DNA of 64,000 nt from an uncultured Kordiimonas sp. (GTDB taxonomy: Bacteria; Pseudomonadota; Alphaproteobacteria; Sphingomonadales; Kordiimonadaceae), in assembly GCA_947500295.1 (NCBI GenBank), contig CANMRM010000001.1:1302001-1366000 (forward strand), in the 5' to 3' direction. Below, in pieces: positions 19,406 to 56,142 of the stretch. The position numbers were made by a program, and so were the translations under genes. The notes under the pieces were generated by a model. It was not told the origin of the DNA. It did not search any database and worked only from the letters and a program-made list of their open reading frames with translations. Position 1 is the stretch's first letter. The number at the start of each line of letters is the position of its first letter.

Positions 19406-21049
<1,644 letters not shown>

Positions 21050-26782: not shown

Positions 26783-26783
26783 C

Positions 26784-28548: not shown

Positions 28549-28578
28549 GTAGTTTTGGGTTTTGTTGCCAGAAATTCA

Positions 28579-28592
28579 TGCAAAATTTTGCA
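28579..28592. promoter_or_regulatory. Perfect 14-bp palindrome upstream of glgP
   Basis: TGCAAAATTTTGCA is perfectly self-complementary and sits 101 bases before the glgP start. A TTGACA hexamer follows at 28628-28633, a possible -35 box, although no good -10 is obvious at the right spacing. The palindrome has the size of a dimeric repressor site and resembles the TGCAAA elements around the LacI-family locus at 53-56 kb. Function is inference. Confidence 0.45.
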
Positions 28593-28692
28593 ACAGCCTA
28601 TTCGATAAAAAAGCTTGATTTCTGCGCTTGACAACGCTGTCTTTCGGAAGGCACCCTACATGCTGAATTGTATGCAGTAGGGCGGAAAAGTC

Positions 28693-31140
28693 ATGACAAA
28701 AATCCAGGTGAGCTCGGCTTCTGAACTGAAAACAGAAAAAGGAGCCCTCGGGGACGCAGTGCTTCGGCATCTTGTCTATTCTGTGGGCAAAGATCAATCC
28801 CATGCTGTCAAACGTGACTGGTGCGCCGCGCTGTCTCTAGCAATTCGTGACCGTATGGTTGACGGCTGGATGGATACAACGCGCCGTATATACAAGTCTA
28901 AACAGAAGCGTGTTTACTACCTGTCCATGGAGTTCATGATCGGCCGTCTGCTTGAAGATGCGATTGCCAATATGGGCCTTACAGAAGAGGCGCGTGAGTT
29001 TTTTGGGTCGCTGGGCATAGACTTGTCAGCCATCCTCAAGGCGGAACCCGATCCCGCGCTTGGCAATGGAGGTCTCGGCCGCCTCGCCGCCTGTTTTATG
29101 GACTCAATGGCTACAGTCGGTGTGGCCGGCATTGGCTACGGCATTCGTTATGAACACGGTATCTTCCGCCAGAGTTTTCAGGATGGATGGCAGCTTGAGG
29201 AACCTGAAGATTGGCTGATATTCGGCAACAGTTGGGAGTTCCAACGGCCGGAGGTTGAATATTCGATCGAATTTGGCGGATCAGTTTCCCAAGGCCATGA
29301 CGGCAAGATGGTCTGGACGCCAAGTGAGCGTATCCTTGCAGGGGCGTTCGACACGCCGATTGCAGGCTGGGGCGGCAAGCACGTTAATACGCTCAGACTC
29401 TGGTCGGCGCGGTCTGCGGAAGTGCTGAACCTGCATCAGTTTAACCAGGGTGAGTTCATTGCAGCTGCTCGTAGTCAGGTCCTGGCTGAGTCGATCACAA
29501 AGGTGCTTTACCCCGGTGACCATACGCCAGAAGGACGCGAGCTGAGGCTCAAGCAGGAAGTGTTTTTCACATCCGCTTCCCTTCAGGACATCCTGCATCG
29601 GTATCTTCTGGACCATGATGATCTTTCAGGCCTGCCGGCAGCGGCGGCTGTGCAACTCAACGACACACACCCGGCGATTGCAGTGCCGGAACTCATTCGC
29701 CTTTTGGTCGACAAGCACGGCATGGAATTTGTGAAAAGCTTCGAGATCGCGCGTGCGACATTGCATTATACTAACCATACACTTTTGCCGGAAGCGCTGG
29801 AGAAATGGCCGCTTGAGCTTATTGAGCGTTGCCTGCCGCGTCATCTGCAGATCATCCGGGAAGTAGACAATCTTTTTGCTGCTGAAGTGCGTGCAAAATT
29901 TGATGACAAAGACCCTGCTCCGATGCAGGCGATTGATCATCATGATGGCGGCTGGGTGCGTATGGGTAATCTGGCTTTTATCGGTTCAAGTCACGTGAAT
30001 GGTGTCTCGGCCCTGCATACGGATCTGATGAAGCAAACGGTGTTCAAGGACCTTCACGAGATATATCCGGACCGTATTCTCAATCAGACCAATGGTATCA
30101 CGCCCCGGCGCTGGCTATATGAAAGCAACCCCCGGCTGGCTGGTCTGATCACGAAAACTATCGGCGACGGCTGGGTTGATGATCTGGAACAGTTGACGGC
30201 TTTGGGGCCTTATGCCGATGATGCCTCGTTTCGCGATGAGTTCGCTTCGGTCAAGGCAGCCAACAAAATAGATCTTGCCTCTTTCATCAAGGCTCAGACC
30301 GGCATCGAAATCGATCCGGCTGCCATGTTCGACATTCAGATCAAACGCATTCACGAATACAAACGCCAATTGATGAATGCGCTGGAAACCATGGCGCTCT
30401 ATAATGCGATCAAGGCAGACCCAAACGCCGCGTGGCAGCCGCGCGTCAAAATATTTGCGGGCAAAGCGGCACCGAGCTACTCGCTTGCAAAGCTGATCAT
30501 CAAAATGATCAATGATGTTGCGGACAAGGTGAACAATGATCCCGAAGTCGGCGACTTGCTCAAGGTTGTTTTCCTGCCGAACTACAATGTCTCGGCGGCG
30601 GAAGAACTAATTCCGGCGGCTGACCTTTCGGAACAGATTTCTACGGCCGGGTTTGAAGCATCAGGCACCGGAAACATGAAGTTTGCGCTCAATGGCGCGC
30701 TGACGATCGGTACGCTCGATGGTGCCAATGTCGAGATTATGGAGCATGTGGGAGAAGACAATATCTTCATCTTTGGCATGAAGGCCCATGAAGTTGCCGA
30801 GCGGCAACGGAGCCATGCTCAGCCCTGGGTTACAGTGTCAGAAACTCCGCGGTTGCAGGAGGTGGTGACCCAGCTGTCGAGCGGTTTTTATTCGCATGGG
30901 GACACAGAGCGATTTGCCGGCATTGTCGACAATATTCTGGCGCACGACTATTTCCAGGTGACACCTGACTTCGATAGCTACTGGCAAATGCAACGGCATG
31001 TTGATAGCGTGTTTGCGGACAAGGACACGTGGCACAAGAAAGCGATCCTGAATACCGCCAACATGGGCTGGTTCTCGGCTGACCGCACGATCCGAAGTTA
31101 TGCCGAGCAAATCTGGAACGCTTTGCCAGCTGAAGGGTAG
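28693..31140 (+). CDS. glgP: Glycogen phosphorylase
   Basis: 815 residues. It releases glucose 1-phosphate from glycogen ends using pyridoxal phosphate. Seen: RRIYKSKQKRVYYLSMEFMIGRLLEDA near the N-terminus, VQLNDTHPAIAVPELIRLL in the middle, KRIHEYKRQLMNAL, and the cofactor-lysine region EASGTGNMKFALNGALTIGTLDGANVEI with the lysine near residue 662. Length and motifs are complete. It starts the plus-strand glycogen arm, with glgB ten bases downstream. Confidence 0.98.
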   Translation: MTKIQVSSASELKTEKGALGDAVLRHLVYSVGKDQSHAVKRDWCAALSLAIRDRMVDGWMDTTRRIYKSKQKRVYYLSMEFMIGRLLEDAIANMGLTEEAREFFGSLGIDLSAILKAEPDPALGNGGLGRLAACFMDSMATVGVAGIGYGIRYEHGIFRQSFQDGWQLEEPEDWLIFGNSWEFQRPEVEYSIEFGGSVSQGHDGKMVWTPSERILAGAFDTPIAGWGGKHVNTLRLWSARSAEVLNLHQFNQGEFIAAARSQVLAESITKVLYPGDHTPEGRELRLKQEVFFTSASLQDILHRYLLDHDDLSGLPAAAAVQLNDTHPAIAVPELIRLLVDKHGMEFVKSFEIARATLHYTNHTLLPEALEKWPLELIERCLPRHLQIIREVDNLFAAEVRAKFDDKDPAPMQAIDHHDGGWVRMGNLAFIGSSHVNGVSALHTDLMKQTVFKDLHEIYPDRILNQTNGITPRRWLYESNPRLAGLITKTIGDGWVDDLEQLTALGPYADDASFRDEFASVKAANKIDLASFIKAQTGIEIDPAAMFDIQIKRIHEYKRQLMNALETMALYNAIKADPNAAWQPRVKIFAGKAAPSYSLAKLIIKMINDVADKVNNDPEVGDLLKVVFLPNYNVSAAEELIPAADLSEQISTAGFEASGTGNMKFALNGALTIGTLDGANVEIMEHVGEDNIFIFGMKAHEVAERQRSHAQPWVTVSETPRLQEVVTQLSSGFYSHGDTERFAGIVDNILAHDYFQVTPDFDSYWQMQRHVDSVFADKDTWHKKAILNTANMGWFSADRTIRSYAEQIWNALPAEG

Positions 31141-31149
31141 GGCAACCAA

Positions 31150-33351
31150 ATGGCAGCGACACTTGACGCGCAGGAAACCCATGCGCTGGCCACTGGCACG
31201 CACGGTGACCCCTTTGCGCGCCTGGGGCGGCACCCTGATGGCAAGTCCACAATCGTTCGGACGTTGGCTCCTGGGGCGGACCGCGTTGAAGTGCTGACCC
31301 TCAAGGGGTCAAAGTCGATTGCTGTTTTAACGGCTGTTGGTGAAGACGGCGTTTTTGAAGGCAGGCTCGCAGGATCAAAAGCTAAGACAGGATACAGGCT
31401 TCGTGCCCATCAGGGAGCGAATTCATGGGAATATCATGACGCTTACTGCTTTGGGCCAAGCCTCACTGACCTCGATATTCACCTGCTGGCGGAAGGCACG
31501 CATGAACGCGCTTACAGGTGTTTTGGCGCCCATGTGATGGATCTGGATGGCGTTGCAGGTGTTCGGTTTGCCGTATGGGCACCCAATGCCAGCCGGGTCG
31601 CCGTGGTGGGAGAATTCAACCACTGGAATAACGCTCAGCACATGATGCGCAATCGAGGCGCAAGTGGCATTTGGGAGCTATTCATCCCCGGCGTGCCGGA
31701 AGGTGCGCACTATAAATACTGCGTGTTTGATGCTGGCGGCGCGCAGCTGCCTTTGAAGGCGGACCCTTATGCGTTTGGCGCGGAGTTTCGCCCCAATACA
31801 GCATCTGTTGTTCGGCAAATCGATGACCATTCATGGTCGGATGCCGATTGGGTTGACACAAGAGGCGGTCGCCAGCATCGAGCGGCGCCCATCTCAATCT
31901 ACGAGGTGCATCTTGGTTCCTGGCAACGCACAGATGATGACGGTCAGCCATTTCTTGATTATGGAGAGATTGCCCGCCGATTGATCCCATACGTGAGAGA
32001 TCTTGGCTTCACGCATCTTGAATTGCTGCCGATCACAGAGCATCCGTTTGATGGCTCATGGGGGTATCAACCGGTAGGGCTTTATGCCCCAACCCGGCGG
32101 TTTGGCACCCCTTCAGATTTCAAGGCTTTTGTCGATGCCTGCCATGCAGCCGAAATTGGTGTGATTCTGGACTGGGTGCCCGGTCACTTTCCATCCGACG
32201 AACATGGTCTCGCTCATTTTGATGGCACTCATCTTTACGAGCATGCAGACCGCCGGCGCGGGTTTCATCCCGACTGGAATACACTCATTTTCAATTTTGG
32301 TCGCCGCGAAGTGCAAAACTATCTGGTGAGCAACGCCCATTTCTGGCTTGAGGAATATCATCTGGACGGTCTGCGTGTGGATGCGGTGGCCTCAATGCTT
32401 TACCTGGACTATAGCCGGGAAGACGGCGAATGGCTGCCAAACGAGCACGGTGGTAACCAGAATTATGAAGCCATCGGCATGATGCAGCGCATGAATGAAC
32501 GCGCTTACGCCCTCAATGATGGCATCATCACTATTGCCGAAGAATCGACCGCCTGGCCTGGGGTTTCTGCGCCAACCGACACCGGCGGGCTTGGTTTCGG
32601 CTTCAAATGGAACATGGGCTGGATGAATGACACGCTCGACTATATGAGCAAAGAGCCCGTGCACCGCAAACATCACCATCATCAGATGACATTCGGCATC
32701 GATTATGCCTTTTCCGAAAACTATGTCCTGCCGCTCAGCCATGATGAAGTGGTGCATGGCAAGGGCTCGCTGTTGGACCGCATGCCCGGCGACCGTTGGC
32801 AGAAGTTTGCAAACCTGCGCGCCTATTTTGGCTTTATGTGGACACACCCCGGCAAAAAACTCTTGTTTATGGGAGGCGAGTTTGCGCAGGCGCGCGAATG
32901 GAACGCGGACGCAGGCCTTGACTGGCATTTGATGGATGACCCTGACCACCGGAACATTCACACGGTCATCAAAGACTTGAACCGGCTTTATGCTGAAAAT
33001 CCTTCTCTTTATGAGCGGGACTGTGAGCCTTCAGGGTTTGAATGGGTTGACGGCGGGGCGGCTGATGACAATATCCTGTCTTACATGCGGTGGGGAAATG
33101 GTAGCAGTAAGCCGTGTCTGGTCGTCTGCAATTTCTCGCCGGAACCGCGTCATGGATACCGTATCGGTGTGCCCTATGGAGGGTACTGGCGCGAGATTAT
33201 GAATACGGACTCGCATTTCTATGGTGGATCAGGTGTTGGCAATCATGGTGGCATCGATGCTGAAGCTTTACCCTGGCACATCAAACCCTATTCATTGAAG
33301 CTGACGATACCGCCTTTGGCGACGGTGGTCTTCACCCATTCACCTACCTAA
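31150..33351 (+). CDS. glgB: 1,4-alpha-glucan branching enzyme
   Basis: 733 residues, full length with the N1 and CBM48 domains (GVRFAVWAPNASRVAVVGEFNHWN, about 137-160). The GH13 core has DWVPGHFPSD, the nucleophile in GLRVDAVASMLYLDYSR (near residue 407), the acid/base in IAEEST (near 461) and LSHDEVVHGKGS. It creates alpha-1,6 branches. It is co-transcribed with glgP, so a degradation enzyme and a synthesis enzyme share one transcript, opposite the glgC arm. Confidence 0.98.
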   Translation: MAATLDAQETHALATGTHGDPFARLGRHPDGKSTIVRTLAPGADRVEVLTLKGSKSIAVLTAVGEDGVFEGRLAGSKAKTGYRLRAHQGANSWEYHDAYCFGPSLTDLDIHLLAEGTHERAYRCFGAHVMDLDGVAGVRFAVWAPNASRVAVVGEFNHWNNAQHMMRNRGASGIWELFIPGVPEGAHYKYCVFDAGGAQLPLKADPYAFGAEFRPNTASVVRQIDDHSWSDADWVDTRGGRQHRAAPISIYEVHLGSWQRTDDDGQPFLDYGEIARRLIPYVRDLGFTHLELLPITEHPFDGSWGYQPVGLYAPTRRFGTPSDFKAFVDACHAAEIGVILDWVPGHFPSDEHGLAHFDGTHLYEHADRRRGFHPDWNTLIFNFGRREVQNYLVSNAHFWLEEYHLDGLRVDAVASMLYLDYSREDGEWLPNEHGGNQNYEAIGMMQRMNERAYALNDGIITIAEESTAWPGVSAPTDTGGLGFGFKWNMGWMNDTLDYMSKEPVHRKHHHHQMTFGIDYAFSENYVLPLSHDEVVHGKGSLLDRMPGDRWQKFANLRAYFGFMWTHPGKKLLFMGGEFAQAREWNADAGLDWHLMDDPDHRNIHTVIKDLNRLYAENPSLYERDCEPSGFEWVDGGAADDNILSYMRWGNGSSKPCLVVCNFSPEPRHGYRIGVPYGGYWREIMNTDSHFYGGSGVGNHGGIDAEALPWHIKPYSLKLTIPPLATVVFTHSPT

Positions 33352-40458: not shown

Positions 40459-42984
40459 CTAGAAGTCGTAGCTCAGAGAAACACCAAACTCACGCTGGCG
40501 TGGCGGCGTCACGGCAAAGTCGCGGGCAAAGGTGCCCCGGCCAAAGCCTGATGTCCGAACCTGGCTTGGGATAAAGAAGAACTGTCGGAAGTCCGCGAGG
40601 CGGGTAACCACTTCCGGCGTGTCTTCTTTGGTCAGGTTTTTCGCGTAGAAAGTGACGCGCAGGTCATCCAACGTGAAGCCGACATTGGCGTTGATCTTGT
40701 TTGTGCCGCCAACAAACGCAAGGTTCGCTGCCTGAACGAAACGCTTGCTCTCATACGTATAATCGACATTCATGAACAGGTTCATGCGATCATTAACCTC
40801 GTATGTGAAGTTCGGCGAGATTGTCAGCATATGCTTTGGTGTTTGTGGCAACTGGTTGCCGGCAACCTGACCGTCGGGGTCAACAGTATCAACAAGGTCA
40901 ACACGGCCATCAGCACGCGTGCCAACAATCAATACGCCCGGCGCGCCATCGACAACACCGTCGTTATCCGCGTCAGGGGCTTTGCTGACTTCCGCAGGAC
41001 CGGTGAAGAAACCGTTGGTGTCTTGCAGGTCGCGGAAGTTCTCGTCGACATAGTCATCGAACTCCGCGTCGGAGTAGGCGTAGGTTACACGAAGGTCAAA
41101 GCCTTGCGTCACCGCAGCACTGACTTCTATCTCGAAGCCTTTGACCTCTGACGTACCCGCATTGACAATCGGTGCGACAGTTGACTGAGATGTCAGGCCT
41201 TCACGCCGCAGTGCTTCTGATGTGGTCAAAGGCTGAGCGGTCCAGTCCAGATAGTAAACCGATGCGTCATAGCGCACGCGTCCGTCAAACAACGCCCCTT
41301 TTGACCCGAGCTCGTATGACCAGACCTTGGATTCGGCAAAAGTGCCCTTGCCGTCGTTCAGGAAGTTGGCCCGGTCTTCCACTGCAAAAGTCGCGTCGAA
41401 GAAGGAGGAGTTAAATCCGCCGGGTTTGTTGCCGCGAGCAGCCGACGCGTAGAAATTTATTTCGTCGCTGACGTCATAGCGCAAGGCAAAGCGCGGGAGA
41501 GTGGCGTCAAACACCAGGTCGTCAGGCGCGTCCAGCGCCGCTGCTGTCAGCGGGTTATCAATACCTTCGCCTGCCAGATGAAGTGTTTCTTCCTGCCAGC
41601 GAATTTCGGCGGACAGCACCAGGTTTTCCATGATGTCATAATCGACACTGCCGAACACAGCGACGTTGCGAATGAAGCTGTCATTGCTCAGAAGCACTAC
41701 ATCACTGTCAACTGGTGCGGGATCAACCAAAGGGTCCCAGGAGGTGCCAAAATCGTCACCGTCTGAGTCCTTGAAATAGTACCCGCCGATCAGCCAGCGC
41801 AGTCGTTCATCGTCGGGACTGGCCAGGCGCACTTCTTCTGAAAAATACTTCTGGCTGCCACGGCTGAAGGAAGCAAAACCACCCGGGTTGACGGCGCCAA
41901 AGGCGTTCTGGAAATCGAAATCCGTATAACCCGTCAAGGACGTCAGCGTGTAGCCGTTGATGTCATAGTCGACAACCGCCGTAAGACGGAAGCTGTCCCG
42001 GCGAACACCATCTACTGTTTCACCGTTGGTGCCGCTCAGGTCATAATAGTAGCTGCTGAAGCTATCGATTTCGCCGCAATAATAGCCGCGGCTGCGGGTT
42101 TGACCGAGGAAGCCAAACAACAGCGAAGGTTCGAAGCAGTTGATCTGGTTTTCACCTTGAATGCTTTCGTCGTCGTCACCGCCATTCCAAAGGCCATAGG
42201 CGAAACCGCGATCCCGGTCTTCGGAGTAGGCCATGTCGACGTAAACACTGAGATTGTCAGTTGGTGTCCAGTTGATTTTGGCGCCAATCATCTTGGTTTC
42301 TTCGTCGCCCAGCTCTTTCCTGCCGTTTACATTGTTGATGAAGTCACCGCCAAACGTGTAGTACGACCCGCTGACCTCAACGGCGAGCTTATCTTCCACG
42401 ATCGGGGCTTGAATAAAGCCGCGCAGTTCATAGTGATCATGATCGCCGGCCTCTGCGGCAACCCGACCTCTGAATTCATTGCCGGGCCGCGATGTGATGA
42501 AGTTGATGGCACCGGAGAATGTCCCGCGGCCGAACAAAGCCGACTGAGGGCCACGAACAACTTCCACACGCTGTACGTTGTTCAGGTCATAGGACGTAAT
42601 CGGCCCTGACACATAAACACCATCCACGAAAAACGAGGCGTTGGGTGATCCCAGAATGTTGGACATACCGCGGATAGATGGACGGTTATTGGCACCGCCG
42701 GTTGCTCGTCCAAAACCTTCGCGGAACGAAAAGCCCGGCGTTAGGAGAGCGAGATCCTGGACATCCTGGATTTGTGAACGCTGGATCGCGTCCGCAGTAA
42801 AAGCGGTGATGGCAAGTGGCACATCCCGCAGGTTTTCAGACCGTTTCCGGGCTGTAACAATGATTTCCTCCAGCGAAAGCTCGTCGTCGTCCGCCGCTGC
42901 ATCCTGCGCATTTGCCGACCAACTGGCAGCGGTCGCTGCCAAGCTCAGCACTGCCGTCGTCGACATCAGTTTTTTGATAAGCAT
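40459..42984 (-). CDS. TonB-dependent receptor (probably siderophore or iron-complex)
   Basis: 841 residues behind a strong GGGAGGA ribosome site. Signal peptide (cut near ANA-QD), TonB box LEEIIVTARKR, plug domain with FFVDGVYVSGP and VEVVRGPQSALFGRGTFSGAINF, then a 22-strand-type barrel ending GVSLSYDF. The 'RSENLRDVPLAITAFTADAIQ' type of plug start is common to alphaproteobacterial receptors of wide specificity. Pairing with a PepSY-TM protein downstream favours an iron or metal chelate; this is inference, and no local siderophore gene is seen. Confidence 0.92.
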   Translation of the reverse strand: MLIKKLMSTTAVLSLAATAASWSANAQDAAADDDELSLEEIIVTARKRSENLRDVPLAITAFTADAIQRSQIQDVQDLALLTPGFSFREGFGRATGGANNRPSIRGMSNILGSPNASFFVDGVYVSGPITSYDLNNVQRVEVVRGPQSALFGRGTFSGAINFITSRPGNEFRGRVAAEAGDHDHYELRGFIQAPIVEDKLAVEVSGSYYTFGGDFINNVNGRKELGDEETKMIGAKINWTPTDNLSVYVDMAYSEDRDRGFAYGLWNGGDDDESIQGENQINCFEPSLLFGFLGQTRSRGYYCGEIDSFSSYYYDLSGTNGETVDGVRRDSFRLTAVVDYDINGYTLTSLTGYTDFDFQNAFGAVNPGGFASFSRGSQKYFSEEVRLASPDDERLRWLIGGYYFKDSDGDDFGTSWDPLVDPAPVDSDVVLLSNDSFIRNVAVFGSVDYDIMENLVLSAEIRWQEETLHLAGEGIDNPLTAAALDAPDDLVFDATLPRFALRYDVSDEINFYASAARGNKPGGFNSSFFDATFAVEDRANFLNDGKGTFAESKVWSYELGSKGALFDGRVRYDASVYYLDWTAQPLTTSEALRREGLTSQSTVAPIVNAGTSEVKGFEIEVSAAVTQGFDLRVTYAYSDAEFDDYVDENFRDLQDTNGFFTGPAEVSKAPDADNDGVVDGAPGVLIVGTRADGRVDLVDTVDPDGQVAGNQLPQTPKHMLTISPNFTYEVNDRMNLFMNVDYTYESKRFVQAANLAFVGGTNKINANVGFTLDDLRVTFYAKNLTKEDTPEVVTRLADFRQFFFIPSQVRTSGFGRGTFARDFAVTPPRQREFGVSLSYDF

Positions 42985-43323
42985 GGTTCCTCCCTGCTAT
43001 CATCGCGCTTCGCAAGGCATGGATAGGATGACGGGCCGGACAATAGCCCTGCCTCACCAGAAACGCTTAATTTACCCCAATTGCATCCACCCCTATTAGG
43101 GCGCGAAGCAGGGCCTTAGTCAACTGTATGATATATCAATAATACAACTTACACTGGATACAGGGCACGGGAGCCTTGTGGAGACTATGAAAATCAACGA
43201 CTTAGCATGTACGTCGGTGAAGAAAATGTTACAGTACTGTTGCAAAAATGTCGCGTTTTAAAGTCGCGACATTTTGTAATGGTTTGCTAATTATGGACGA
43301 ATCAACCGATGCTACAGCCTAGT
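42985..43323. other. Intergenic region between the TonB receptor and pirin
   Basis: About 340 bases without a gene. It must hold the promoter of the receptor (minus strand) and contains the terminator hairpin after pirin. The middle (43120-43240) is AT-rich. I see no convincing small gene, tRNA or Fur-type box in it. Confidence 0.6.
43244..43275 (-). terminator. Probable rho-independent terminator of the pirin gene
   Basis: A perfect 11-bp inverted repeat (43245-43255 and 43265-43275, AAAATGTCGCG and its complement) around a 9-base loop. On the minus strand it ends in five T, 49 bases past the pirin stop. The A/T-rich outer stem makes it nearly symmetrical, so it could also be a protein site. 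Confidence 0.6.
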
Positions 43324-44238
43324 TTAGCGGGTTGGAAGCGGAATAAATTCTTCGTCTCCTTCAACCATGTCAAAGCCACCGGATGTCCAGCGTTCTTTTG
43401 CTGCCTCAATCATGGCGACATCGGTGTGGGCAAAGTTCCACCACAGTTTGCGTGCACGCTTAAGCTTGTCACCGCCAATGAGAGCAAGGTGGGCTCCATT
43501 TGGCGCTTGCACCGGCACGGTTTCGCCTTCTTGAAGGACTACCATGGTTGCTTCTCCAAAGACTTCGTCGCCCAATTGCACCGAACCTGACACTACATAG
43601 ATTGCGCGTTCTTCATGCTCGGGTGGCACGTTCAGGGTGGCACCGGTATCAAGGCGCACATCCGCATACAGGGTACGGCTATGGACAGAAACCTGGGACG
43701 ACGCTCCCCACGCGTCCCCGGCGACAATCATGACTTTGGCGCCTTCCAGTTCAACGGTTGGAATGTCATCAGCCACATAGTGCTGAAAAGAAGGATCGGC
43801 TTCCTGGAAATCAGATGGTAACGCCATCCAGACCTGGAGGCCAAGCAGGCTGTGGCCTGCCGCCCGTACATCGTCAGGCGTGCGCTCCGAATGGACAATT
43901 CCGCTGCCCGCAGTCATCCAGTTTACTTCGCCGGGCCGGATCGGTTGCGTGTACCCCAAGCTGTCGCGGTGCATAATTTCACCTTCAATCAACCAGGTAA
44001 GCGTTGAAAGACCAATGTGAGGATGTGGCCGAACATCAATGCCTGTACCGGGTGCGAAGGTGGCGGGTCCCATCTGGTCAAAGAAGATGAAAGGGCCCAC
44101 TGTGCGCGCTTCTATGGATGGCAACGCCCGGCGTACTTCAAAACCGCCTATATCCTTTGCCTTTGGACGGATTATGGTTTTGATGCCTGAGCAGGTCTTG
44201 TGTTCGCAGTCAGCGGTCGTTGAATCATGGTAACTCAT
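43324..44238 (-). CDS. Pirin family protein
   Basis: 304 residues, bicupin. The N-terminal cupin has the pirin metal motif [18 protein letters not shown] with later HSERTP, and [11 protein letters not shown] precedes it. Bacterial pirins are non-haem iron proteins; some are quercetinases, others act as redox-dependent regulators. It is a single gene with its own terminator, divergent from the molybdenum hydroxylase pair. No functional link to these can be shown from the sequence alone. Confidence 0.92.
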
Positions 44239-44368
44239 GTCTGTCTCCCTCGTCCTTCATACGGTCAGGGTGCTGCCTCCCGATCACATTTTAATGACAG
44301 TAGGCTGCATAGCCCTATATACTGATAAATGGATCAATAGGGCTGGCCAAAACCGGGAGAGTATTGGC

Positions 44369-44833
44369 ATGAAATATTCACTGAAAGTCAACGGAGAGAT
44401 ACGGGACGTCGACGTTGAGCCGGATACACCGCTTTTGTGGGTGCTTCGAGACGAACTGGGCTTCAAGGGCGTGAAGTTCGGGTGTGGCGTTGCGGCCTGC
44501 GGTGCCTGCACCGTGCACATGGATGGCACAGCCACCCGAACCTGTATTTATCCTGTAGAGGCTGCCGAGGACATCGATATCACGACAATCGAGGGCTTGG
44601 CCGACGAGGGCATGTATACCGATGTCCAGCAAGCCTGGATCGATGAGCAGGTACCACAGTGCGGCTATTGCCAATCGGGTATGATCATGGCGGTCAGTGC
44701 TCTACTGGAAGAAAATTCCGCGCCCACTGATCAGGATATTGATGACGCGATCACCAACGTTTGCCGGTGCGGCAGCTATCCACGTATTCGCAAGGCAATC
44801 CGGAAAGTCATCAGTGAAAGGGGAGCGGCATAA
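44369..44833 (+). CDS. [2Fe-2S] subunit of a molybdenum hydroxylase (IorA-like)
   Basis: 154 residues from ATG 44369, with GGGAGA upstream; the longer frame back to 44237 adds an unrelated leader. A plant-type ferredoxin domain has Cys 39, 44, 47 and 59, and a second four-helix domain has Cys 98, 101, 132 and 134, giving two [2Fe-2S] clusters. Small subunits of this size pair with a large molybdopterin subunit in isoquinoline 1-oxidoreductase and related aldehyde or N-heterocycle oxidising enzymes. The stop overlaps the next start (TAATG). Confidence 0.93.
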
Positions 44834-47040
44834 TGGCTGAGAAAAAGAAAAAACTCACCCGCCGCAAGTTCCTGATCGGCACTGGCGCAGTTGTCGGTGG
44901 TGGTCTCGTGCTCGGTTATGCAGCTCTGCCCAATCAGATGAAAGACATTGCTGCTCGCCATAAGGGCGAAGGGCAAATCCTTTCCGGATGGATCAAGATC
45001 ACGCCGGATAACAAAGTCACCGTTATCGTGCCGCATGCGGAAATGGGGCAGGGCACTCATACTGCGCTTCCCATGATGGCAGCGGAGGAACTGGATGCAG
45101 ATTGGGACCTGGTGCAGATGGAAGAAGCGCCCGGGTTACCGGAGTTCGCCAATCAGCCGCTTGGCGAAGGTTTCATTGTCGGTGACAGCTTGCCCGATAT
45201 TCTGGCACCGCTGATCAACAAAGCATTTTATTCGATTGCCCAGGCCATGGATCTCCAGATAACCGGCGGCTCCACATCTGTCCGGTTCACCGGGCAGTAC
45301 GGTATGCGGGTCGCTGGAGCAGCGGCACGTGAAATGCTGATGAAAGCGGCGGCGGAAGAGTGGGACGTATCGGTTAGCGACCTCTCCACTGAAAAGAGTT
45401 TTGTGCATCACAAGGCGTCCGGCCGGTCGGCAAGCTATGGTTCTTTGGCTGAGGCTGCCAGCAGCTTTGACCCGAGCCCGACGCCGACACTGAAGCCGAA
45501 AGCGGCACACACCATTGTCGGTACCCGGACAATCAAACGTTTTGACATCCCCGGCAAAGTCAATGGCTCCGCAAAATACGGCATTGATGCCGAAGTGGAC
45601 GGCATGCTCTATGCCGCCATCGCGCGAGTTCCGGTACACGGTGGTACCATCACGTCGATCGAAGACAGCGCGGCGCTTGCCATGCCAGGCGTCAGGAAGG
45701 TGTGCAACCTTGGCTATGCTTATGCTGTTGTTGCGGACAAATACTGGCGCGCCAGAACAGCGCTGGATGCCGTAGAGATTGCATTTGATGCAGGTGGCAA
45801 TGAACTGGTTGATTCAGACGCGATCTTCGCGCGCTTTAGCGAGGATCTGGCGACGCATGAACTCGAATATGACATCGATGAGGGCGATGTGGACGGTGCC
45901 GAAGGCAGGCTTGTTGAGGCCGATTATGCAGTGCCGTATCTCGCGCACGCCTGTATGGAGCCGATGAACTGCACGGCGTGGGTGCGCGACGGTGTCTGCG
46001 ACATCTGGACCGGTACCCAGGCGCCATTGATGGCGCGTACTGCTGCCGCTGTTGCCGCCGGGCTGGAACCGGAGAAGGTTACTGTGCACAACCATATGCT
46101 TGGTGGCGGTTTTGGTCGACGTATCCATGCGGAAAACGATTATGTCGCGCCAGCGGTTGAAATCGCGAAGATGGCAGGCGCCCCGGTTAAAACCATCTGG
46201 ACCCGCGAAGAAGACATGAGGTTCGATGAATATCGTCCTGCAGTGGTGAGCCGATTTGCTGCCAAACTGGGTGAAGACGGCAAGCCGGTTGCCTGGAAAA
46301 ACCGTTTTTCCGACAAAAGAGAGCCGGCGGAAGCACCGCTTATTCCTTACGGCGTTGTTAATCAGTCGATCGGCTATGTGCGCAGTCAAAGTCACCTGAA
46401 GCTCGGACCCTGGCGCAGCGTTGATCATTCGCAGCACGCTTTCTTCACCGAGAGTTTCGTGGATGAATTGGCGCACGAAGCAGGTGCCGATCCGCTGGAA
46501 TACCGCCTGTCCATGCTGGCGGATGCGCCGCGTCACGCCCATGTGCTGAAAACGGCCGCAGAGAAAGCCGGTTGGTACGCAGGCGTCCGCGATGGCCGTG
46601 CGATGGGGATAGCGGTGCACGAAAGCTTCGGCACTATCGTTGCGCATGCCGCCGAGGTTTCTATTGGCGATGATGGCATGCCACGTGTGCATAAAGTGAC
46701 GTGTGCCGTGGACTGCGGTGAGGCCATCAACCCTGACAATATTGAGTCGCAAATCGAAAGCGCCATTATCTACGGCATGACCGGCGCATTCTTTGGTGAA
46801 ATAACAGTGCAAGACGGCCAGGTTGTCGAAGGCAATTTCCCAGAGTATGAGATGGTTCGCCTGGCTGATGTGCCTGAAATAGAGGTTTACATCATCGAAT
46901 CTGGTGCCCCGATGGGTGGCATTGGCGAGCCCGGGTTGCCGCCAACAGCTCCGGCGATTACCAACGCTGTATATGCGCTCACCGGACAGCGTGTGCGCAA
47001 GTTGCCGCTCAGGAACTATGATTTCTCGGCAAGTGCCTGA
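44833..47040 (+). CDS. Molybdopterin-binding subunit of a xanthine dehydrogenase-family enzyme (IorB-like)
   Basis: 735 residues with a twin-arginine signal (RRKFLIG at 10-16 and a hydrophobic stretch to about 32), so the folded enzyme is exported to the periplasm with its small partner. Duplicated aldehyde-oxidase/xanthine-dehydrogenase modules are seen; [19 protein letters not shown] and [23 protein letters not shown] are typical, and [16 protein letters not shown] carries the catalytic Glu near residue 700. Substrates of the family range from aldehydes to N-heterocycles. No cytochrome c subunit or XdhC-type maturation gene is adjacent. Confidence 0.93.
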
Positions 47041-47057: not shown

Positions 47058-48584
47058 TCAGGTGCCTATCGGGCGTCCGAGGCTTTGTGACAGAAAATCT
47101 GCATGTTTGGGGAGCCGGCTTTTGCCGGCTTCCACAATATTACGCACATCGGCCGGAATGACCGGCGGCGTTTGCTCACTGCCGGGCAGGACACCATCTG
47201 CGACCTGAAAATCCATGCCATAAAGAATGTATTCATAGCTCTGGTGGCTGAAGAGCCTGAGTTGATCGTCAAAGTCTGAATGGGTTGGCGGCTTGAAACG
47301 CCAGAAGTCAAATTTGGCCTTCAAGCTGTCGGTGATGTGTTCGTCCTTCTGGACTTCCCGCCAGAAGTCAGTGTCGGTACGCTTGCTCAGGCAATAGTGC
47401 ATATTGATGAAATCAAGGATTTCGCTGTAGCGACTGCCCATAATTTCATTGAAACGCTTGGACAGGGGCCGGGTGATCTCACCAAACGGGAAATGCTCAC
47501 ACAATGTAATCGCCGCGAATTCGATAAGATAAAGGCCTGTGGATTCTAGAGGCTCGATAAAGCCGCCGGACAGGCCAATCGCCACACAGTTTTTTGTCCA
47601 TGGTGTGGGACGCATACCAACACGGAATTTAAGGCGGCGGGCGTCAATACCCTCTGAATGAGCGCCTTCGTGCGCACGCAGCTGTGTTTCAGCGTCATCG
47701 TCGGACAGAAACTGACTTGAATAAACATAGCCGATACCGCGCCGGTCTGAGAGGCCAATGTCCCATTTCCAGCCGTAGCTGAGCGCAGTTGCGGTCGTGT
47801 ATGGTTTCACCTCTCCCGGGTAGTGAACGGAATAGGGTACACGCATGGCAACTGCCCGGTCACACAACAACCATTTGCTATAGTCCATGAAATCGGTTCC
47901 AAGGGTTTTGCCAGACAGAAGGCTCGCGAACCCTGTGCAATCGATGAAAAGGTCAGCGCTCAGCGATAGACCCCCCTTGGTTTTTACCTCTGCGATGTCT
48001 CCATCTTCTGTCTGGGTGACTTCGGTAACATCGTCAATGTGATGGGTTACGCCACGGGTAACCGAAATGTCACGCAGATAGTCGGCAAATTTTTCGGCGT
48101 CCATATGGTATGCATAAGGAAAGGGTGAGCCAAAATCCTTGCTGCCGGCCATGCGTGGGCTCAGGCCCATGTCACAGAAGGCTGGCTGCACAGAGACGGT
48201 TTCCGCGTATGGAGTTGTGCGGTCGCTCATCAGCCAGTCTGCACCGGCCCGGTCGATCCGTGCCATCGGGCGGCGCTGGAACGGATGATAGTAGCCACCG
48301 TCGCCAACATGGAGCCAATCGTCGAAGCGGATCGCCTGCTTGAAGCTGGCGTCGGTCTTTTTCATAAACTCGGCTTCGCTGATGCCAACCGATTGCAGAA
48401 CCTGCCGGATGGTTGGTACTGTCGCTTCGCCTACGCCGATACGGCCGATGGAAGCCGATTCAACAAGCGTTATGTCAACCATGGTTTTGCGCGCGTTCAG
48501 GGCTGCATTCATGTAGGCGGCCGTAATCCAGCCCGCCGAGCCACCACCAACAATCAGGACTTTTTTAATCGGAGCCATGGTCAT
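47058..48584 (-). CDS. Flavin-dependent tryptophan-halogenase-family protein (second of pair)
   Basis: 508 residues. FAD-binding GGGSAGWITAAYMN (13-26), the conserved Lys of the halogenase tunnel at K82 (ASFKQAIRF), YYHPFQRRP, and GWKWDIGLSDRRGIGYVYSS, where the classical WxWxIP reads WxWDIG. Families like this use reduced flavin and halide to chlorinate or brominate indoles or other arenes. It overlaps the upstream homologue by 4 bases and was probably produced by tandem duplication. No flavin reductase is seen nearby. Real substrate unknown; it is not near tryptophan or antibiotic genes. Confidence 0.9.
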   Translation of the reverse strand: MTMAPIKKVLIVGGGSAGWITAAYMNAALNARKTMVDITLVESASIGRIGVGEATVPTIRQVLQSVGISEAEFMKKTDASFKQAIRFDDWLHVGDGGYYHPFQRRPMARIDRAGADWLMSDRTTPYAETVSVQPAFCDMGLSPRMAGSKDFGSPFPYAYHMDAEKFADYLRDISVTRGVTHHIDDVTEVTQTEDGDIAEVKTKGGLSLSADLFIDCTGFASLLSGKTLGTDFMDYSKWLLCDRAVAMRVPYSVHYPGEVKPYTTATALSYGWKWDIGLSDRRGIGYVYSSQFLSDDDAETQLRAHEGAHSEGIDARRLKFRVGMRPTPWTKNCVAIGLSGGFIEPLESTGLYLIEFAAITLCEHFPFGEITRPLSKRFNEIMGSRYSEILDFINMHYCLSKRTDTDFWREVQKDEHITDSLKAKFDFWRFKPPTHSDFDDQLRLFSHQSYEYILYGMDFQVADGVLPGSEQTPPVIPADVRNIVEAGKSRLPKHADFLSQSLGRPIGT

Positions 48585-50098
48585 CCGGCTCGCTCATACT
48601 GCGTACCAAATTTTGCTTCAAGCCAGGCGTCATGGGTAGGGAATGAGCCCCGGGCTTTGGTAACGGCCTCTTCAATCTCGCGCGGTATTGCGGTCGGGGG
48701 TACACGCCGCCCTGCGATCTTCTCGCGCTGGAAATCCATGCCATACATGACATACTCGTATGTGTGGTGGGAGAAGAGCTGCAGATTGTTGGTAAAGTCC
48801 GACAGCGACGGTGACTTATATTTGTATATCTCGAGCCATTCTTTGAGGCTGTCCGTAATTCGTTCCGATTTTTGCACTTCTTTCCAGAAATCAGTGTCGG
48901 TGCGTTTGCTCAGGCAATAGTGCAACACGATAAAGTCGAGTGTTTCCTCGTAGCGATCCTGCATGACCTTGTTGAACTTGGTCGCCAGCCCGCTCATGTT
49001 GTCGGTCATCGGGAAGTATTCGCAAATGGTTGCGGCTGCCAGTTCCACAAGGAAAAGGCCTGTCGATTCAAGAGGTTCAATGAAGCCGGAGGCCAGGCCG
49101 ATAGAGACACAGTTTTTGGCCCAGAACTGGTCGCGGCGGCCGACCTTGAACTTCAACACGCGCGCGGTCACATCGTCAGCGTGCTCACCTTCATAGGCGC
49201 GCAGTTCGGCTTCTGCGGCATCATCATCGATGAAATCGCTTGAGTAGACATAGCCGACGCCCCGCCGGTTGGCGAGGCCGATATCCCATATCCAGCCGTT
49301 TGAAACTGCTGTCGACAGGGTGTAGGGCTTTCTTGTGCCCGGATAGTAAGTGTCGAACGGCACACGCATGGCAACCGCACGGTCACACAATAGCCACTGG
49401 GAATAATCTACGTGCGGCACGCCGAGCGCGCCTTCAATAAGCAGCGCGCGGAAGCCTGTGCAATCAATGAAAAGATCGGCTTCAAGCCGCTTGCCGGTTT
49501 GGGTTTTGACGGCCGCAATGCGACCATCCGGGTGCATCTCCGCCTCGACCATCAGGTCCTGCACATGATTGACACCGCGTTTGGTCGCGAGGTTACAGAG
49601 ATAGTCAGCCGTGCGCTCTGCATCCATATGATAGGCGTAAGAGACCGGCGCTTCATAGTCGGGGCTGTCCATCAACTTGGGGCTCAGGCCGTCTTCGCAC
49701 ATCCACGGTTGTGGTGACACGGTCGCGGCGAAAGGCGTGGAGCGATCAGAGGAAAGCCAGCGCAGGCCGGCGCGGTCCAGTCTGCCGGCGGGGCGGCGGT
49801 CAAATGGATGATAATAGCTGTCGTCGCCATTCAACCAGTTCACAAACTTGATCGCCTGCTTGAAAGTGGCGTCTGCGGCCGTCATGAATTCCTGCTCGGG
49901 CACGCCGATGGTGCGCATGGTATCGCGCACGCTCGGAACCGTTGCCTCGCCGACACCGATGCGGCCGATGTCTGGGCTTTCAAGAACAGTGATATCAATG
50001 ATCTTTTTGGTTTGGCCGTTAAGGACTGCGTCCATGTAAGCGGCTGTGATCCAGCCTGCGGAGCCGCCACCAACTATCAGAACTTTTCTGAGCGCCAT
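48581..50098 (-). CDS. Flavin-dependent tryptophan-halogenase-family protein (first of pair)
   Basis: 505 residues and clearly a paralogue of the next gene. GGGSAGWITAAYMD (10-23), K80 in ATFKQAIKF, YYHPFDRRP, GWIWDIGLANRRGVGYVYSS and CTGFRALLIEGALG are seen. The Pro of WxWxIP is Gly here too, the Trp pair being kept. It follows the 53-kb TonB receptor after about 240 bases containing a hairpin and a terminator-like stem, so its expression is probably partial read-through or from its own promoter. The last codons overlap the second halogenase (ATGA), ensuring coupled translation. Confidence 0.9.
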   Translation of the reverse strand: MALRKVLIVGGGSAGWITAAYMDAVLNGQTKKIIDITVLESPDIGRIGVGEATVPSVRDTMRTIGVPEQEFMTAADATFKQAIKFVNWLNGDDSYYHPFDRRPAGRLDRAGLRWLSSDRSTPFAATVSPQPWMCEDGLSPKLMDSPDYEAPVSYAYHMDAERTADYLCNLATKRGVNHVQDLMVEAEMHPDGRIAAVKTQTGKRLEADLFIDCTGFRALLIEGALGVPHVDYSQWLLCDRAVAMRVPFDTYYPGTRKPYTLSTAVSNGWIWDIGLANRRGVGYVYSSDFIDDDAAEAELRAYEGEHADDVTARVLKFKVGRRDQFWAKNCVSIGLASGFIEPLESTGLFLVELAAATICEYFPMTDNMSGLATKFNKVMQDRYEETLDFIVLHYCLSKRTDTDFWKEVQKSERITDSLKEWLEIYKYKSPSLSDFTNNLQLFSHHTYEYVMYGMDFQREKIAGRRVPPTAIPREIEEAVTKARGSFPTHDAWLEAKFGTQYERAG

Positions 50099-50146: not shown

Positions 50147-50177
50147 AAAAAGCCGCTGCTACAGATATAACAGCGGC
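50147..50177 (-). terminator. Terminator-like stem between the TonB receptor and the halogenase pair
   Basis: On the minus strand GCCGCTG, a 12-base loop and CAGCGGC are followed by five T. It lies 158 bases after the TonB receptor stop and 49 bases before the first halogenase start, so it would separate or attenuate the two parts of the locus. Confidence 0.65.
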
Positions 50178-50334: not shown

Positions 50335-53079
50335 CTAGAAGCGTGTGCGGAACCGTACGCCGTAAATGCGCGGCGAGTTCAGGTATCGGATATTCACGGA
50401 ACCGTTGATGAAGCCTTTGGGCGTAAAGGCCTGCTCGAACACGTTTTCCATGTAGAAGTCGAGACGATGCTGCTCGTCATCACCCATGTTGATCCCGGCG
50501 TTAAAGTTAACAAGCCAGAAGCTGTCCACGGTGTCCTGGAAGAAACCAATGCCAGCCGGGCCGCCGATGCCTGACAACGCGCCGTTGTTGTTTGGCACGA
50601 AGCGGTCAGGATCCGGGAACTCGTTGTTGAACTGGGTGAGGAAGAAACTGCTGCGGAACAGCGTGCTGATTGTCCAGTCGAACGACTTCACGATGTCACC
50701 ATCGAGCTGATAGTTCTGCGACAGGCGCATGTTGATGTTCCACTTGGACGTGTTCTCGAGGCGGTTGCCGCGAACGTCCGTTAGCGGATCACCGTTCGTC
50801 ACACGCGGATCAAACAGCACGTTTTCGGCATCATCGCTGAACTCGGTATCGAGATAGGCAAGGTTAAAGCCGAAGTTGAAGCCCTGTGGCAAGTCGAAGT
50901 TACCGTCGATTTCCACACCAAACACAGTGGCACCGCCCACGTTGTCAGAAACAACACGTTCTGTGGTAGCATTCGGGTTGGTCGGGGTTGGACTTGGTAC
51001 CGTCACCAGGTTCTGAACCACGCGGTCCGAATAGTCATAATAGAAGGCTGCGGCGTTCAAAACAGCGCGGCGGCCGTTCAGGTCGAACACATTCTTCGAA
51101 CCGATTTCATAGACAACCAGTTTTTCTGGGTCCCAGGTTGTTGCTTGGGTTACCCCGGTCTGGGAAACAATTGGCCGGTTGATGCCGCCAGAGCGGTGAC
51201 CGGTCGAAACTGTACCATACAGAAGCTGAGTATCGCTGAGATCATATTCGAAACCTACACGCCAATCGACAAAACTGTCTTTCACGCGAGTGGTTTCCGT
51301 GAGCTCCAGAACGTCTGCTGTCGTCGGATCATCAAAGTCCGTGTCGGTTACGATGATCTGGCAGTTTTCAGGGGCACCCTGGCAGGATTGCAGCACATCG
51401 TCCCAGTTGTCGCGTACGCCGAAGCTTGAGAAACCATCAAGGAACAACTGCGTTGCATCACCGCCAACAGCGATGGTGTCGCCCCCTGCTCGTTCGCCAG
51501 GAGCTGCCAAACGCAGTCCTTCAGATCCGATTACCAGGTCGCTTGGCTCGTTGATGCCAGGCTGGCTGAAGAAGAAGTCGGAATTGAAGGTGAACTGATA
51601 CCGCGCACTAAAGTCGTTTTGGGTTTTCTCGTCTTCTGTCCAGCGGATACCACCTTTGATGCGCAGGCGATCGCTGATTTCATATGTGGCGTCACCGTAG
51701 AAGGCGATGGATTCAACTTCGCTGTCGTCGCCACGGCTTTCACCGCCCAGACCGTTCTGCCAACAGCTGATTGTCTCCGGACCAAGCGGCGCTTCGAAGC
51801 CAAAGAAGTTGCTGTTTCCGCAGAAGCCGTTGCCGATGTCCCAGGAAACAAAGTCATAGGTTTCCTTGAAGTAGAACCCGCCAGCGGTCCACTGCAGCGG
51901 GCCATCATCGGTTGAGAAGAAGCGCAGTTCCTGAATGATTGATTCACTGCGTTCGCCCTGCGAGAAAGTATCGTTGACGTTCAGGTTCCGCTGTGGGTTG
52001 GCACCTGAAGCAATAAAGTCCGCCTCGAGCTCGGAGCCAGGGTAAACCATACCCAGTTGCCATTCGCGCGATGCGTTCTGGTTATAGGCATCAAGATCAG
52101 TCAGGGACGCATTATATTCGACGCCGAACTGGTCAAAATCATAAACGACGGTTGCCTGATACATCTGGATTTCCTGGTCGAAACGACCTTCCGTTCGGAA
52201 ATACTGGTTCCATGGATCGTCCAGGTCATCAATGTCAAAACCAGCTGAAAGTGCCCGGCCCGAGAAGGTGCCCGGGTCACCGCTGGATTGCACATCAGAG
52301 TATGTTGCAAACAGGTCAACAGTCAGGCGATCGCTGGGCTCCCAACGCAGCGACAAGCGGCCCGCGATATCGTCCTGAGCACTCGGTGTTGTGAAGTCAG
52401 TCACACCAAGGTCTTCGATGAATTCGTTGCTATAGAGGCCGTCATGCGCCTTGTGCCAACCGGCTGCGCGGATCGCAAGCGTGTCCGAAAGCGGTACGTT
52501 CAATACGGCCTCCAGCTCACGGCCATTGAAATTGCCGACACCCGCCATGACCGCGCCGGAAAACTCCTGCGTATCGGGGCGATTTGAAATGATATTGATC
52601 GTGCCGCCGGTTGCGTTCCGTCCGCGAACTGTGCCCTGAGGGCCCTTGTTAACCTCTACACGCTGCGTATCAAAAAACAGCGGGCCGATGCCGCGCGGGC
52701 GGGGCAGGTAAACACCGTTGAAATGAGTGGCCACCGATGGGTCGCTCGAAAAGTCACTGTCCGCGGAACCGATTCCGCGCAGGAACACTTCGAACTTGCC
52801 TTCCTGTTTAGCAATTTGCAGACCTGGCACGGCATATTGCAAATTTGCAAATTCGGAATTAACCCCGATCCGCTGCAGCTCCAGGCCATCAAATGCCTGA
52901 ACTGTGCCCGCAACATCCTGAATGCTCTCTTCGCGCCGGTTAACCGTCACGATGATCTCTTCAAAAACTTCTTCTTCCGCGTCGGCATTTTGTGCGTTTA
53001 CGGCGGTTCCTGCCATCATCAAGGCCGGTACCGAAGCAAAGCACATCAGCTTCGACTTGGTATATTTTGAGGTACGCAT
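50335..53079 (-). CDS. TonB-dependent receptor of the halogenase/LacI locus
   Basis: About 914 residues from ATG 53079 behind GGGAGAGGGGT; an in-frame start 20 codons upstream has no signal-peptide logic. Signal peptide (cut near VNA-QN), TonB box FEEIIVTVNRREESIQDVAG, plug motifs GPLFFDTQRVEVNKGPQGTVRGRNATGGTINIISNRPD and a long barrel ending in FRTRF. Size and the GRNATGGTINI variant match the large receptors that alphaproteobacteria pair with LacI regulators and MFS sugar transporters. The ligand is therefore more likely an oligosaccharide or conjugated aromatic than iron; this is inference. Confidence 0.92.
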   Translation of the reverse strand: MRTSKYTKSKLMCFASVPALMMAGTAVNAQNADAEEEVFEEIIVTVNRREESIQDVAGTVQAFDGLELQRIGVNSEFANLQYAVPGLQIAKQEGKFEVFLRGIGSADSDFSSDPSVATHFNGVYLPRPRGIGPLFFDTQRVEVNKGPQGTVRGRNATGGTINIISNRPDTQEFSGAVMAGVGNFNGRELEAVLNVPLSDTLAIRAAGWHKAHDGLYSNEFIEDLGVTDFTTPSAQDDIAGRLSLRWEPSDRLTVDLFATYSDVQSSGDPGTFSGRALSAGFDIDDLDDPWNQYFRTEGRFDQEIQMYQATVVYDFDQFGVEYNASLTDLDAYNQNASREWQLGMVYPGSELEADFIASGANPQRNLNVNDTFSQGERSESIIQELRFFSTDDGPLQWTAGGFYFKETYDFVSWDIGNGFCGNSNFFGFEAPLGPETISCWQNGLGGESRGDDSEVESIAFYGDATYEISDRLRIKGGIRWTEDEKTQNDFSARYQFTFNSDFFFSQPGINEPSDLVIGSEGLRLAAPGERAGGDTIAVGGDATQLFLDGFSSFGVRDNWDDVLQSCQGAPENCQIIVTDTDFDDPTTADVLELTETTRVKDSFVDWRVGFEYDLSDTQLLYGTVSTGHRSGGINRPIVSQTGVTQATTWDPEKLVVYEIGSKNVFDLNGRRAVLNAAAFYYDYSDRVVQNLVTVPSPTPTNPNATTERVVSDNVGGATVFGVEIDGNFDLPQGFNFGFNLAYLDTEFSDDAENVLFDPRVTNGDPLTDVRGNRLENTSKWNINMRLSQNYQLDGDIVKSFDWTISTLFRSSFFLTQFNNEFPDPDRFVPNNNGALSGIGGPAGIGFFQDTVDSFWLVNFNAGINMGDDEQHRLDFYMENVFEQAFTPKGFINGSVNIRYLNSPRIYGVRFRTRF

Positions 53080-53187
53080 ACCCCTCTCCCTTCCATATCT
53101 ACCCTGCACTGAGTATTTCAAATGGGGGGACAGGTGCACACTATCGGCGCGCGAACGCGTCTATATCTCTCCCCTCATTTTTGACTA

Positions 53188-53373
53188 TGCAAAAAAGCAG
53201 GATCAATTGCAAACATTTCATTAAATTACGCAAAAATTACAAATATTAGTGTGATAAATTTACCTCATGAGAATAATTGGTCTTTTAATGCTTTGAAAAA
53301 TATCAATAAAAATATAATTGCAAAAATATGCAAAAATGAAAAAGACTGCAAAAACCCACAGTTTTGCAAAAAT
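53188..53373. repeat. AT-rich promoter region with repeated TGCAAAAA half-sites
   Basis: The 314 bases between the TonB receptor start and the lacI stop hold no gene. TGCAAAAA occurs at 53188, 53319, 53329, 53347 and 53365, a CGCAAAAA variant at 53229 and a TTGCAAAC at 53207. Four copies are spaced 10, 18 and 18 bases, close to whole helical turns for the first pair, and TGCAAAA (53347) with TTTTGCA (53362) forms an inverted pair. This is the expected place for operators of the adjacent LacI protein, and for the receptor promoter. Confidence 0.5.
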
Positions 53374-56098: not shown

Positions 56099-56142
56099 TG
56101 CAAATTTGCAAAGAAAACTGCAAAAAAATTGAATTTTTGCAG
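56099..56142. promoter_or_regulatory. TGCAAA palindromes upstream of the MFS transporter
   Basis: Two elements in the 95-base gap between the MFS start and the upstream gene: the perfect 12-bp palindrome TGCAAATTTGCA (56099-56110), and CTGCAAAAA with TTTTTGCAG (56118-56126 and 56134-56142). They repeat the half-sites seen at 53.2-53.4 kb and lie 50-95 bases before the transporter start, the right place for LacI-type operators. Confidence 0.45.

Follow-up and report, generated by a model that had tools for sequence, protein, structure and literature searches.

Tandem flavin-dependent halogenase-like genes beside a TonB-dependent receptor gene in an uncultured Kordiimonas

Two adjacent open reading frames (ORFs), halA and halB, on the minus strand of a 64,000-nucleotide stretch of DNA from an uncultured Kordiimonas sp. 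(GCA_947500295.1, contig CANMRM010000001.1, positions 1,302,001 to 1,366,000; this whole stretch is called the window below) have been identified as encoding flavin-dependent halogenase-like proteins. Both products match PF04820 across nearly the whole profile (461 bits for HalA and 451 bits for HalB, with a cut-off of 21), and they are 57% identical to each other over 499 aligned columns. The two genes end a minus-strand series transcribed in the order MFS, LacI, TonB receptor, halA, halB (Table 1), which includes a TonB receptor, a regulator (LacI) and a putative inner-membrane sugar transporter (MFS). The initial annotation, made from the sequence alone, had described two halogenase-like paralogues in a TonB/LacI/MFS setting, and this description stands: the ORFs lie where it placed them, with PF04820 matches and with these neighbours on the same strand.

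The flavin adenine dinucleotide (FAD) motif GGGSAGW is present in both proteins, as is the tunnel lysine (K80 in HalA and K82 in HalB, within FKQAIKF/FKQAIRF). Residues W269, W271, E344, S345-T346-G347 and H393 of HalA have their counterparts in W272, W274, E347, S348-T349-G350 and H396 of HalB; the halide site reads ESTG (within IEPLESTG) in both copies, with the S-x-G ending, and K80, W269, W271, E344 and H393 are invariant in an alignment of 27 members. The WxWxIP motif is not matched, the two copies reading WIWDIG and WKWDIG, with both tryptophans and the isoleucine kept and the proline replaced by glycine. The FAD site, tunnel lysines, paired tryptophans and WxWDIG reading had all been named in the initial annotation, and they have been located in both ORFs. 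WDIG is common to the solved protein 2pyx and many other relatives, so WxWDIG was rejected as the mark of a dead or unusual enzyme and is best taken as a clade signature, no oddity; 9ltb and 9lu2 read WDIA. The catalytic residues argue for working halogenases, and two PF01613 flavin reductase genes are found elsewhere in the genome, on other contigs. Structure models built from 15-row alignments have a mean predicted local distance difference test score of 66.7 for HalA and 60.2 for HalB, with segments below 50 at the pocket; all 50 matches listed for the HalA model are tryptophan-halogenase-type entries. The ratio of nonsynonymous to synonymous substitution rates for halA and halB against two congeners is 0.02-0.04, the synonymous rate being saturated.

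Table 1. Coordinates of the features of the halogenase locus, in positions of the window.
Feature	Position	Strand	Basis
halA, PF04820 flavin-dependent halogenase-like protein, 505 aa	48581..50098	-	ORF and profile match
halB, PF04820 flavin-dependent halogenase-like protein, 508 aa from first ATG	47058..48584	-	ORF and profile match
TonB-dependent receptor (PF00593 and PF07715), 934 aa from first start	50335..53139	-	Pfam
LacI-family regulator, 348 aa	53394..54440	-	profile matches
MFS transporter, 507 aa	54525..56048	-	GPH/sucrose symporter models, scores below cut-off
Operator-like region in the LacI-TonB spacer, five TTTTTGCA copies	53188..53372	-	8-mer count
Candidate LacI operator preceding the MFS gene, CTGCAAAAA..TTTTTGCAG as an inverted repeat	56118..56142	-	
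Terminator- or attenuator-like hairpin with T tail, spacer between TonB gene and halA	50152..50177	-	also in L041 and L042

The altered tryptophan motif also bears on a reading in which HalA and HalB have lost halogenation and work as flavin monooxygenases or oxidases, with hydroxylation of an aromatic compound or residue like that of peptidyl tryptophan by QhpG. WDIG, WDIA and similar sequences replace WxWxIP in many relatives, there are weak NCBIfam matches to QhpG and LodB, and QhpG is reported to dihydroxylate tryptophan within a protein; however, the QhpG matches reach 28-32 bits against a cut-off of 240, and the tunnel lysine, the catalytic glutamate and the STG halide site are all retained. 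We regard this reading as decidedly improbable.

The best relatives of HalA and HalB in the PDB are found at E values of 8e-107 and 6e-104. The nearest solved relatives are 2pyx of Shewanella frigidimarina, 9ltb of Altererythrobacter and 9lu2 of Pseudoalteromonas L11-2, putative tryptophan halogenases of the same large clade; they fall in separate subclades, with EASA in 2pyx and 9ltb and EATG in 9lu2 where HalA and HalB have ESTG. Searching the literature for 9ltb, 9lu2 and 9luq gave just two papers, both unrelated. As described in PMC5945002, BrvH of Brevundimonas BAL3 (PDB 6frl) resembles the window's proteins in being of PF04820 type, in having a short substrate loop without the residues that hold tryptophan in RebH, and in having a second halogenase gene, 42.7% identical, directly upstream. 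It differs from them in keeping WxWxIP and in having ESTS at the halide site, and it groups with Xcc4156 (which has ESTN there), not with the WDI clade: in a tree of 65 proteins, the BrvH/Xcc4156 group forms one side of a branch, with 100/100 support, without HalA and HalB. These lie also outside the branch of PrnA, PyrH and 8fov, the three tryptophan halogenase references in the tree. (Three divergent relatives, L064_7, L065_7 and L066_5, were dropped from this tree, the second of two, and kept in the first; proteins shorter than 480 aa were excluded from both.) MibH (PDB 5uao), a peptide tryptophan halogenase of the same superfamily reported to act in NAI-107 biosynthesis, provides a precedent for halogenation of tryptophan inside a peptide and is only distantly similar (E values of 4e-60 to HalA and 1e-57 to HalB). 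The two proteins belong to an already known family, and the element added here is the receptor context.

In five genomes (the window's own and four relatives, chosen for few contigs and with complete receptor lists), 16 of the 19 halogenase clusters, with 25 of the 28 genes, have a TonB-receptor plug domain no more than 6 kb away, a weak partial PF04820 match on contig C3 of the window's own genome being left out of this count; random positions in the same genomes have one that close in 10-19% of cases. Among ten annotated plasmid records, hand-picked from 40 listed of 80 and with no Streptomyces among them, a TonB receptor is found near the halogenase in nine. The sugar genes of these records vary: GH68; GH43 with a beta-xylosidase and a fucosidase; GH2; GH9 with GH43 and GH3; a beta-glucosidase; alpha- and beta-galactosidases (two records); GH3 with GH2; and, in one record, 2,5-didehydro-3-deoxy-L-galactonate reductase, an enzyme of the agar pathway. 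In Kordiimonadaceae, loci of SapC type carry GH20 in L055, L057, L058, L059 and L062 (loci are designated here by L and a number), GH3 in L060, Cupin_8 in L063, and both GH3 and Cupin_8 in L008. In L051 the receptor is about 4.5 kb from the halogenase. The TonB receptor is the steadier partner of these halogenases, the neighbouring glycosidases differing from locus to locus, though exceptions exist. The ORF maps used come from a greedy longest-ORF picker, which hides one halogenase each in L055 and L056 as well as that of L048, and a purpose-built TonB model missed receptors that were later shown by Pfam.

That genes of this kind recur next to TonB receptors, in many cases together with SapC or a cupin, partners which the initial annotation took to be absent here, has been seen in the loci of relatives and in the plasmid records. 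SapC is indeed missing from the window locus, both SapC genes of the genome lying elsewhere, one with the other halogenase pair (L008) and one on contig C6. The absence of a cupin holds as far as Cupin_8 was not among the neighbours scanned, with no genome-wide search for it made; a pirin gene, pirin being a bicupin, lies beyond the molybdenum hydroxylase next to halB. The link between halogenases and TonB receptors was not seen in listings and abstracts from searches of open-licence PubMed Central papers, and may be described elsewhere; no word beginning with TonB occurs in the main text of the BrvH paper (PMC5945002), nor in the main texts of other halogenase papers checked.

The genes for LacI, the TonB receptor, HalA and HalB are found in identical order, with 84-92% identity, in two congeners (L041 and L042). 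The position of the MFS gene is unchanged in L042 (79% identity); that of L041 is 58% identical and is separated from LacI by a sodium:solute symporter gene. Since the genes beyond halB (molybdenum hydroxylase, pirin and a second TonB receptor) are also kept there, at 76-93% identity (89-93% for the hydroxylase), this synteny within the genus is partly plain common descent and proves little alone; distant loci weigh more. At seven of nine loci (L041-L046 and L049), a TonB receptor 56-92% identical to that of the window adjoins the halogenase or is one gene away from it. As to the exceptions, L047 is cut off at that point, and in L048 no receptor is found among the four largest ORFs other than the halogenase, which here has only 48% identity and lies outside the tree sample. 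GH13 and/or GH97 genes are present at six orthologous loci from four other families: those of Halieaceae L043 (GH13, GH77 and glucokinase), L044 (GH97), Parvularcula L045 (GH13 and ABC permeases), L047 (GH97 and GH13), and Maricaulis L046 and Spongiibacteraceae L049 (two GH13 each). GH97 is not specific to alpha-glucans.

Because orthologous loci hold GH13 and GH97 genes, because the MFS protein matches GPH/sucrose symporter models, though below cut-off, and because the window has glycogen/maltodextrin genes of its own, the imported ligand is probably a maltodextrin-like sugar. The window's glycogen/alpha-glucan set lies at 19406-33351, about 14 kb or more from the halogenase locus, and includes phosphoglucomutase, a GlgC-like nucleotidyl transferase, glycogen phosphorylase, branching enzyme and a 1423-aa protein with CBM48, GH13 and MalQ (GH77) domains which resembles a GlgX-MalQ fusion; the Glg names in this 19.4-33.4 kb set have been assigned from Pfam domains. 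The maltodextrin loci of MalA/XCC2469 type in Caulobacter and Xanthomonas (PMC1790865) are described as having a TonB receptor, a regulator and a sugar transporter together with alpha-glucan enzymes; the word halogenase does not occur in the main text of that paper. The initial annotation offered successive action of the paralogues on the imported ligand as one possibility, and this has found no support: a maltodextrin is unlikely as a halogenation substrate since it has no aromatic ring, and the imported sugar was rejected in this role because receptor-linked halogenases accompany many different glycosidases.

The 8-mer TTTTTGCA occurs 15 times in the window, with 4.86 copies expected (standard deviation 1.97). 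Five of the 15 lie in the LacI-TonB spacer; two more are arranged upstream of the MFS gene as the inverted repeat CTGCAAAAA..TTTTTGCAG. These copies are LacI operator candidates. The spacer between the TonB gene and halA contains no copy and has a hairpin that is found in both congeners, though the hairpin scan overall is at chance level (11 versus a mean of 9.9); from this combination, halA and halB probably rely on read-through from the TonB promoter. A further copy of the 8-mer, at 43241-43248, precedes the gene for the second TonB receptor (40459-42984, minus strand), which may be in the same LacI regulon.

The halA and halB ORFs as called share four bases (ATGA). The 4-base overlap that the initial annotation reported is therefore present, though it depends on the choice of start codon and is absent in both congeners, where the junction reads halA-TGA-CC/TC-ATG-halB with a gap of two bases; as a conserved feature it was rejected. 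TGA-CC-ATG is also found in the window, where its ATG lies six bases into halB as called. Since the congeners and the window all have TGA-NN-ATG, the conserved start of halB is probably the ATG at 48578, giving a protein of 506 aa, and the overlap probably stems from an extra, non-conserved ATG. The sequence GGGGAGG, resembling a ribosome-binding site, precedes the halA start, and no obvious site was seen on inspection of the sequence before either halB start, which makes coupled re-initiation at halB plausible.

Tandem placement is common among the relatives: 60 of 123 near-full-length proteins are encoded within 600 bp of another, 54 of them on the same strand (15 short partial rows out of 138 having been dropped by hand). 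Some pairs mix subclades, joining an Xcc4156-like with a 2pyx-like protein (L008, L060, L063 and L067) or a 9lu2-like protein with one of WAWQI type (L054, L057, L058, L059 and L062), or A with B. The tree of 65 proteins places the 7 rows of A on one side of a branch, and likewise the 13 rows of B, with support of 98/96. Kordiimonas, Halieaceae and Parvularcula have rows in both groups, for which reason a recent local duplication was rejected; A and B are an old, retained duplication whose split came before the locus spread across five families. In the stretch covered, Maricaulis L046 has only B and Spongiibacteraceae L049 only A, and in Parvularcula L045 the A and B genes are on opposite strands. 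L050 has three B-type halogenase genes in a row (7106-12095), adjoined by an amidase gene and with a TonB receptor close by. The subclade looks sparse: with the best three candidates per genome scored, relatives at E <= 1e-130 were found in one other genome of a 385-genome class sample and in none other of a 398-genome phylum sample, and they are also present in three of 28 other genomes of the family and in two further genomes of the same order (G042 and G051).

That the two proteins might form an obligate heterodimer, with one subunit catalytic and the other binding or regulatory, is suggested by the tight pairing, by the TGA-NN-ATG junction with no obvious ribosome site before halB, and by the recurrence of pairs from different subclades in SapC-type loci. 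Both copies, however, retain every catalytic residue tested, and the lone B of Maricaulis, the lone A of Spongiibacteraceae and the opposed genes of Parvularcula speak against an obligate partnership, which we consider unlikely. A and B show fixed differences at seven positions (T60/V62, R62/Q64, V391/N394, Q440/R443, H445/Q448, T446/S449 and M451/L454), five of which line the predicted substrate pocket or adjoin it. T446/S449 aligns with S447 of BrvH; this residue corresponds to N470 of RebH, described in the BrvH paper (PMC5945002) as contacting the indole ring. The age of the split and the place of these five residues point to a non-redundant action of A and B.

In the alignment, the substrate loop (426-441 in HalA, 429-444 in HalB) is three residues longer than that of BrvH and has neither an adjacent tyrosine pair nor a glutamate; another loop, long in tryptophan C5 halogenases, is short in both. 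Relative to those tryptophan halogenases in which they are long, the two substrate loops are both short, much like those of BrvH and Xcc4156. Y454, Y455 and E461 of RebH are reported to bind free tryptophan by its amino and carboxy groups, and as such residues are not seen in HalA or HalB, free tryptophan is disfavoured as a substrate. BrvH and Xcc4156 halogenate indole in vitro, and a peptide substrate has been proposed for both by their authors, by analogy with MibH; the natural substrates are stated to be unknown.

The interpretation to which we give even chances is that HalA and HalB are intact, cytoplasmic two-component flavin halogenases, co-regulated with TonB-dependent uptake of alpha-glucan, and that they modify, in non-redundant roles, a larger aromatic which is probably part of a peptide. 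A maltodextrin-like sugar would relieve repression by LacI, so that the MFS transporter and TonB receptor are made, and halA-halB by read-through of the hairpin. A general flavin reductase encoded elsewhere in the genome would supply reduced FAD (FADH2), which with O2 and halide would yield hypohalous acid that passes through the tunnel to K80/K82 and E344/E347, as the conserved residues suggest; the halide preferred is perhaps bromide, as in BrvH. The substrate would then be neither free tryptophan nor the sugar, and most plausibly a tryptophan or tyrosine of some protein or peptide connected with sugar uptake through the receptor; A and B would work at different sites or on different substrates. 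The receptor context would in this way narrow the search for a substrate, which need no longer cover every aromatic metabolite, to something connected with such uptake.

Another possibility, though a rather unlikely one, is that HalA and HalB successively halogenate a free aromatic (indole, phenol or a signal molecule), much like KtzQ/KtzR, and that the TonB link is only co-regulation with a carbon source. KtzQ and KtzR are reported to work in tandem on tryptophan, BrvH and Xcc4156 accept free indole and not tryptophan, and the ring-contact residue is not the same in A and B; but the indole activity of BrvH is low and its authors doubt that indole is the substrate (PMC5945002), no biosynthetic genes have been seen in the conserved part of the locus, and related genes accompany TonB receptors in loci for many sugars. 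We think it quite unlikely that the preferred interpretation can be extended to make TonB-linked halogenase pairs, together with any SapC and Cupin_8 at the locus, a protein-modification set, whose cytoplasmic enzymes would brominate or oxidise aromatic residues of the receptor or other envelope proteins, one site per paralogue, and of which the window locus, with receptor and pair only, would be the minimal form. Were an envelope protein found to be halogenated, a type of modification new for bacterial proteins would be at hand; if none is, a whole class of hypotheses falls.

Several points weigh against the interpretation of a receptor-linked halogenase pair acting on a larger aromatic. HalA and HalB have no obvious signal peptide at their N-termini, and the receptor is an outer-membrane protein; no glycosidase lies beside the window's halogenase locus; and the receptor linkage may reflect co-regulation only. 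The linkage has gaps as well, since the three clusters missed in the five genomes make up one lone halogenase group (L009, L061 and L084), the S. parapaucimobilis plasmid record has no TonB receptor within 8 kb, and none was present among the large ORFs scanned in L052 and L048. The RebH residues were taken from the literature, RebH itself being outside the alignment, and the C-terminal loop of PyrH, a tryptophan 5-halogenase, is as long as that of HalA. Three of the seven A/B positions fall in a 21-residue pocket segment (p about 0.002), a segment that was picked after the positions had been seen. WxWxIP has been suggested to prevent monooxygenase action (PMC5945002), so that the missing proline leaves a non-halogenating role open; no functional report on 2pyx, 9ltb or 9lu2 was found, and 2pyx is cited as unpublished.

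Downstream of halB, a two-gene molybdenum hydroxylase (2Fe-2S and molybdenum-cofactor subunits) on the opposite strand, which stops 17 bases before the end of halB, and a pirin gene divergent from it occupy 44237-47040 and 43324-44238. The lone halogenases, which belong to another subclade, have been found in three Kordiimonas genomes, at L009 7753-9315 (C5:77909 in the window's own genome), L061 7499-9055 and L084 9277-7748; the L061 and L084 proteins are 89% and 62% identical to that of L009. In L009 and L084, but not as far as found in L061, a DUF885 gene adjoins the halogenase. L064 10040-11527, L065 8480-10213 and L066 7993-9480 encode divergent PF04820-like proteins with 23-25% identity to those of the window, in each case next to an intact halogenase in a genome of the same order. 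Their sequences do not match the FAD, lysine and tryptophan motif patterns, though L066 retains IEPLE, and it is possible that they are non-catalytic partners of the halogenases they adjoin.

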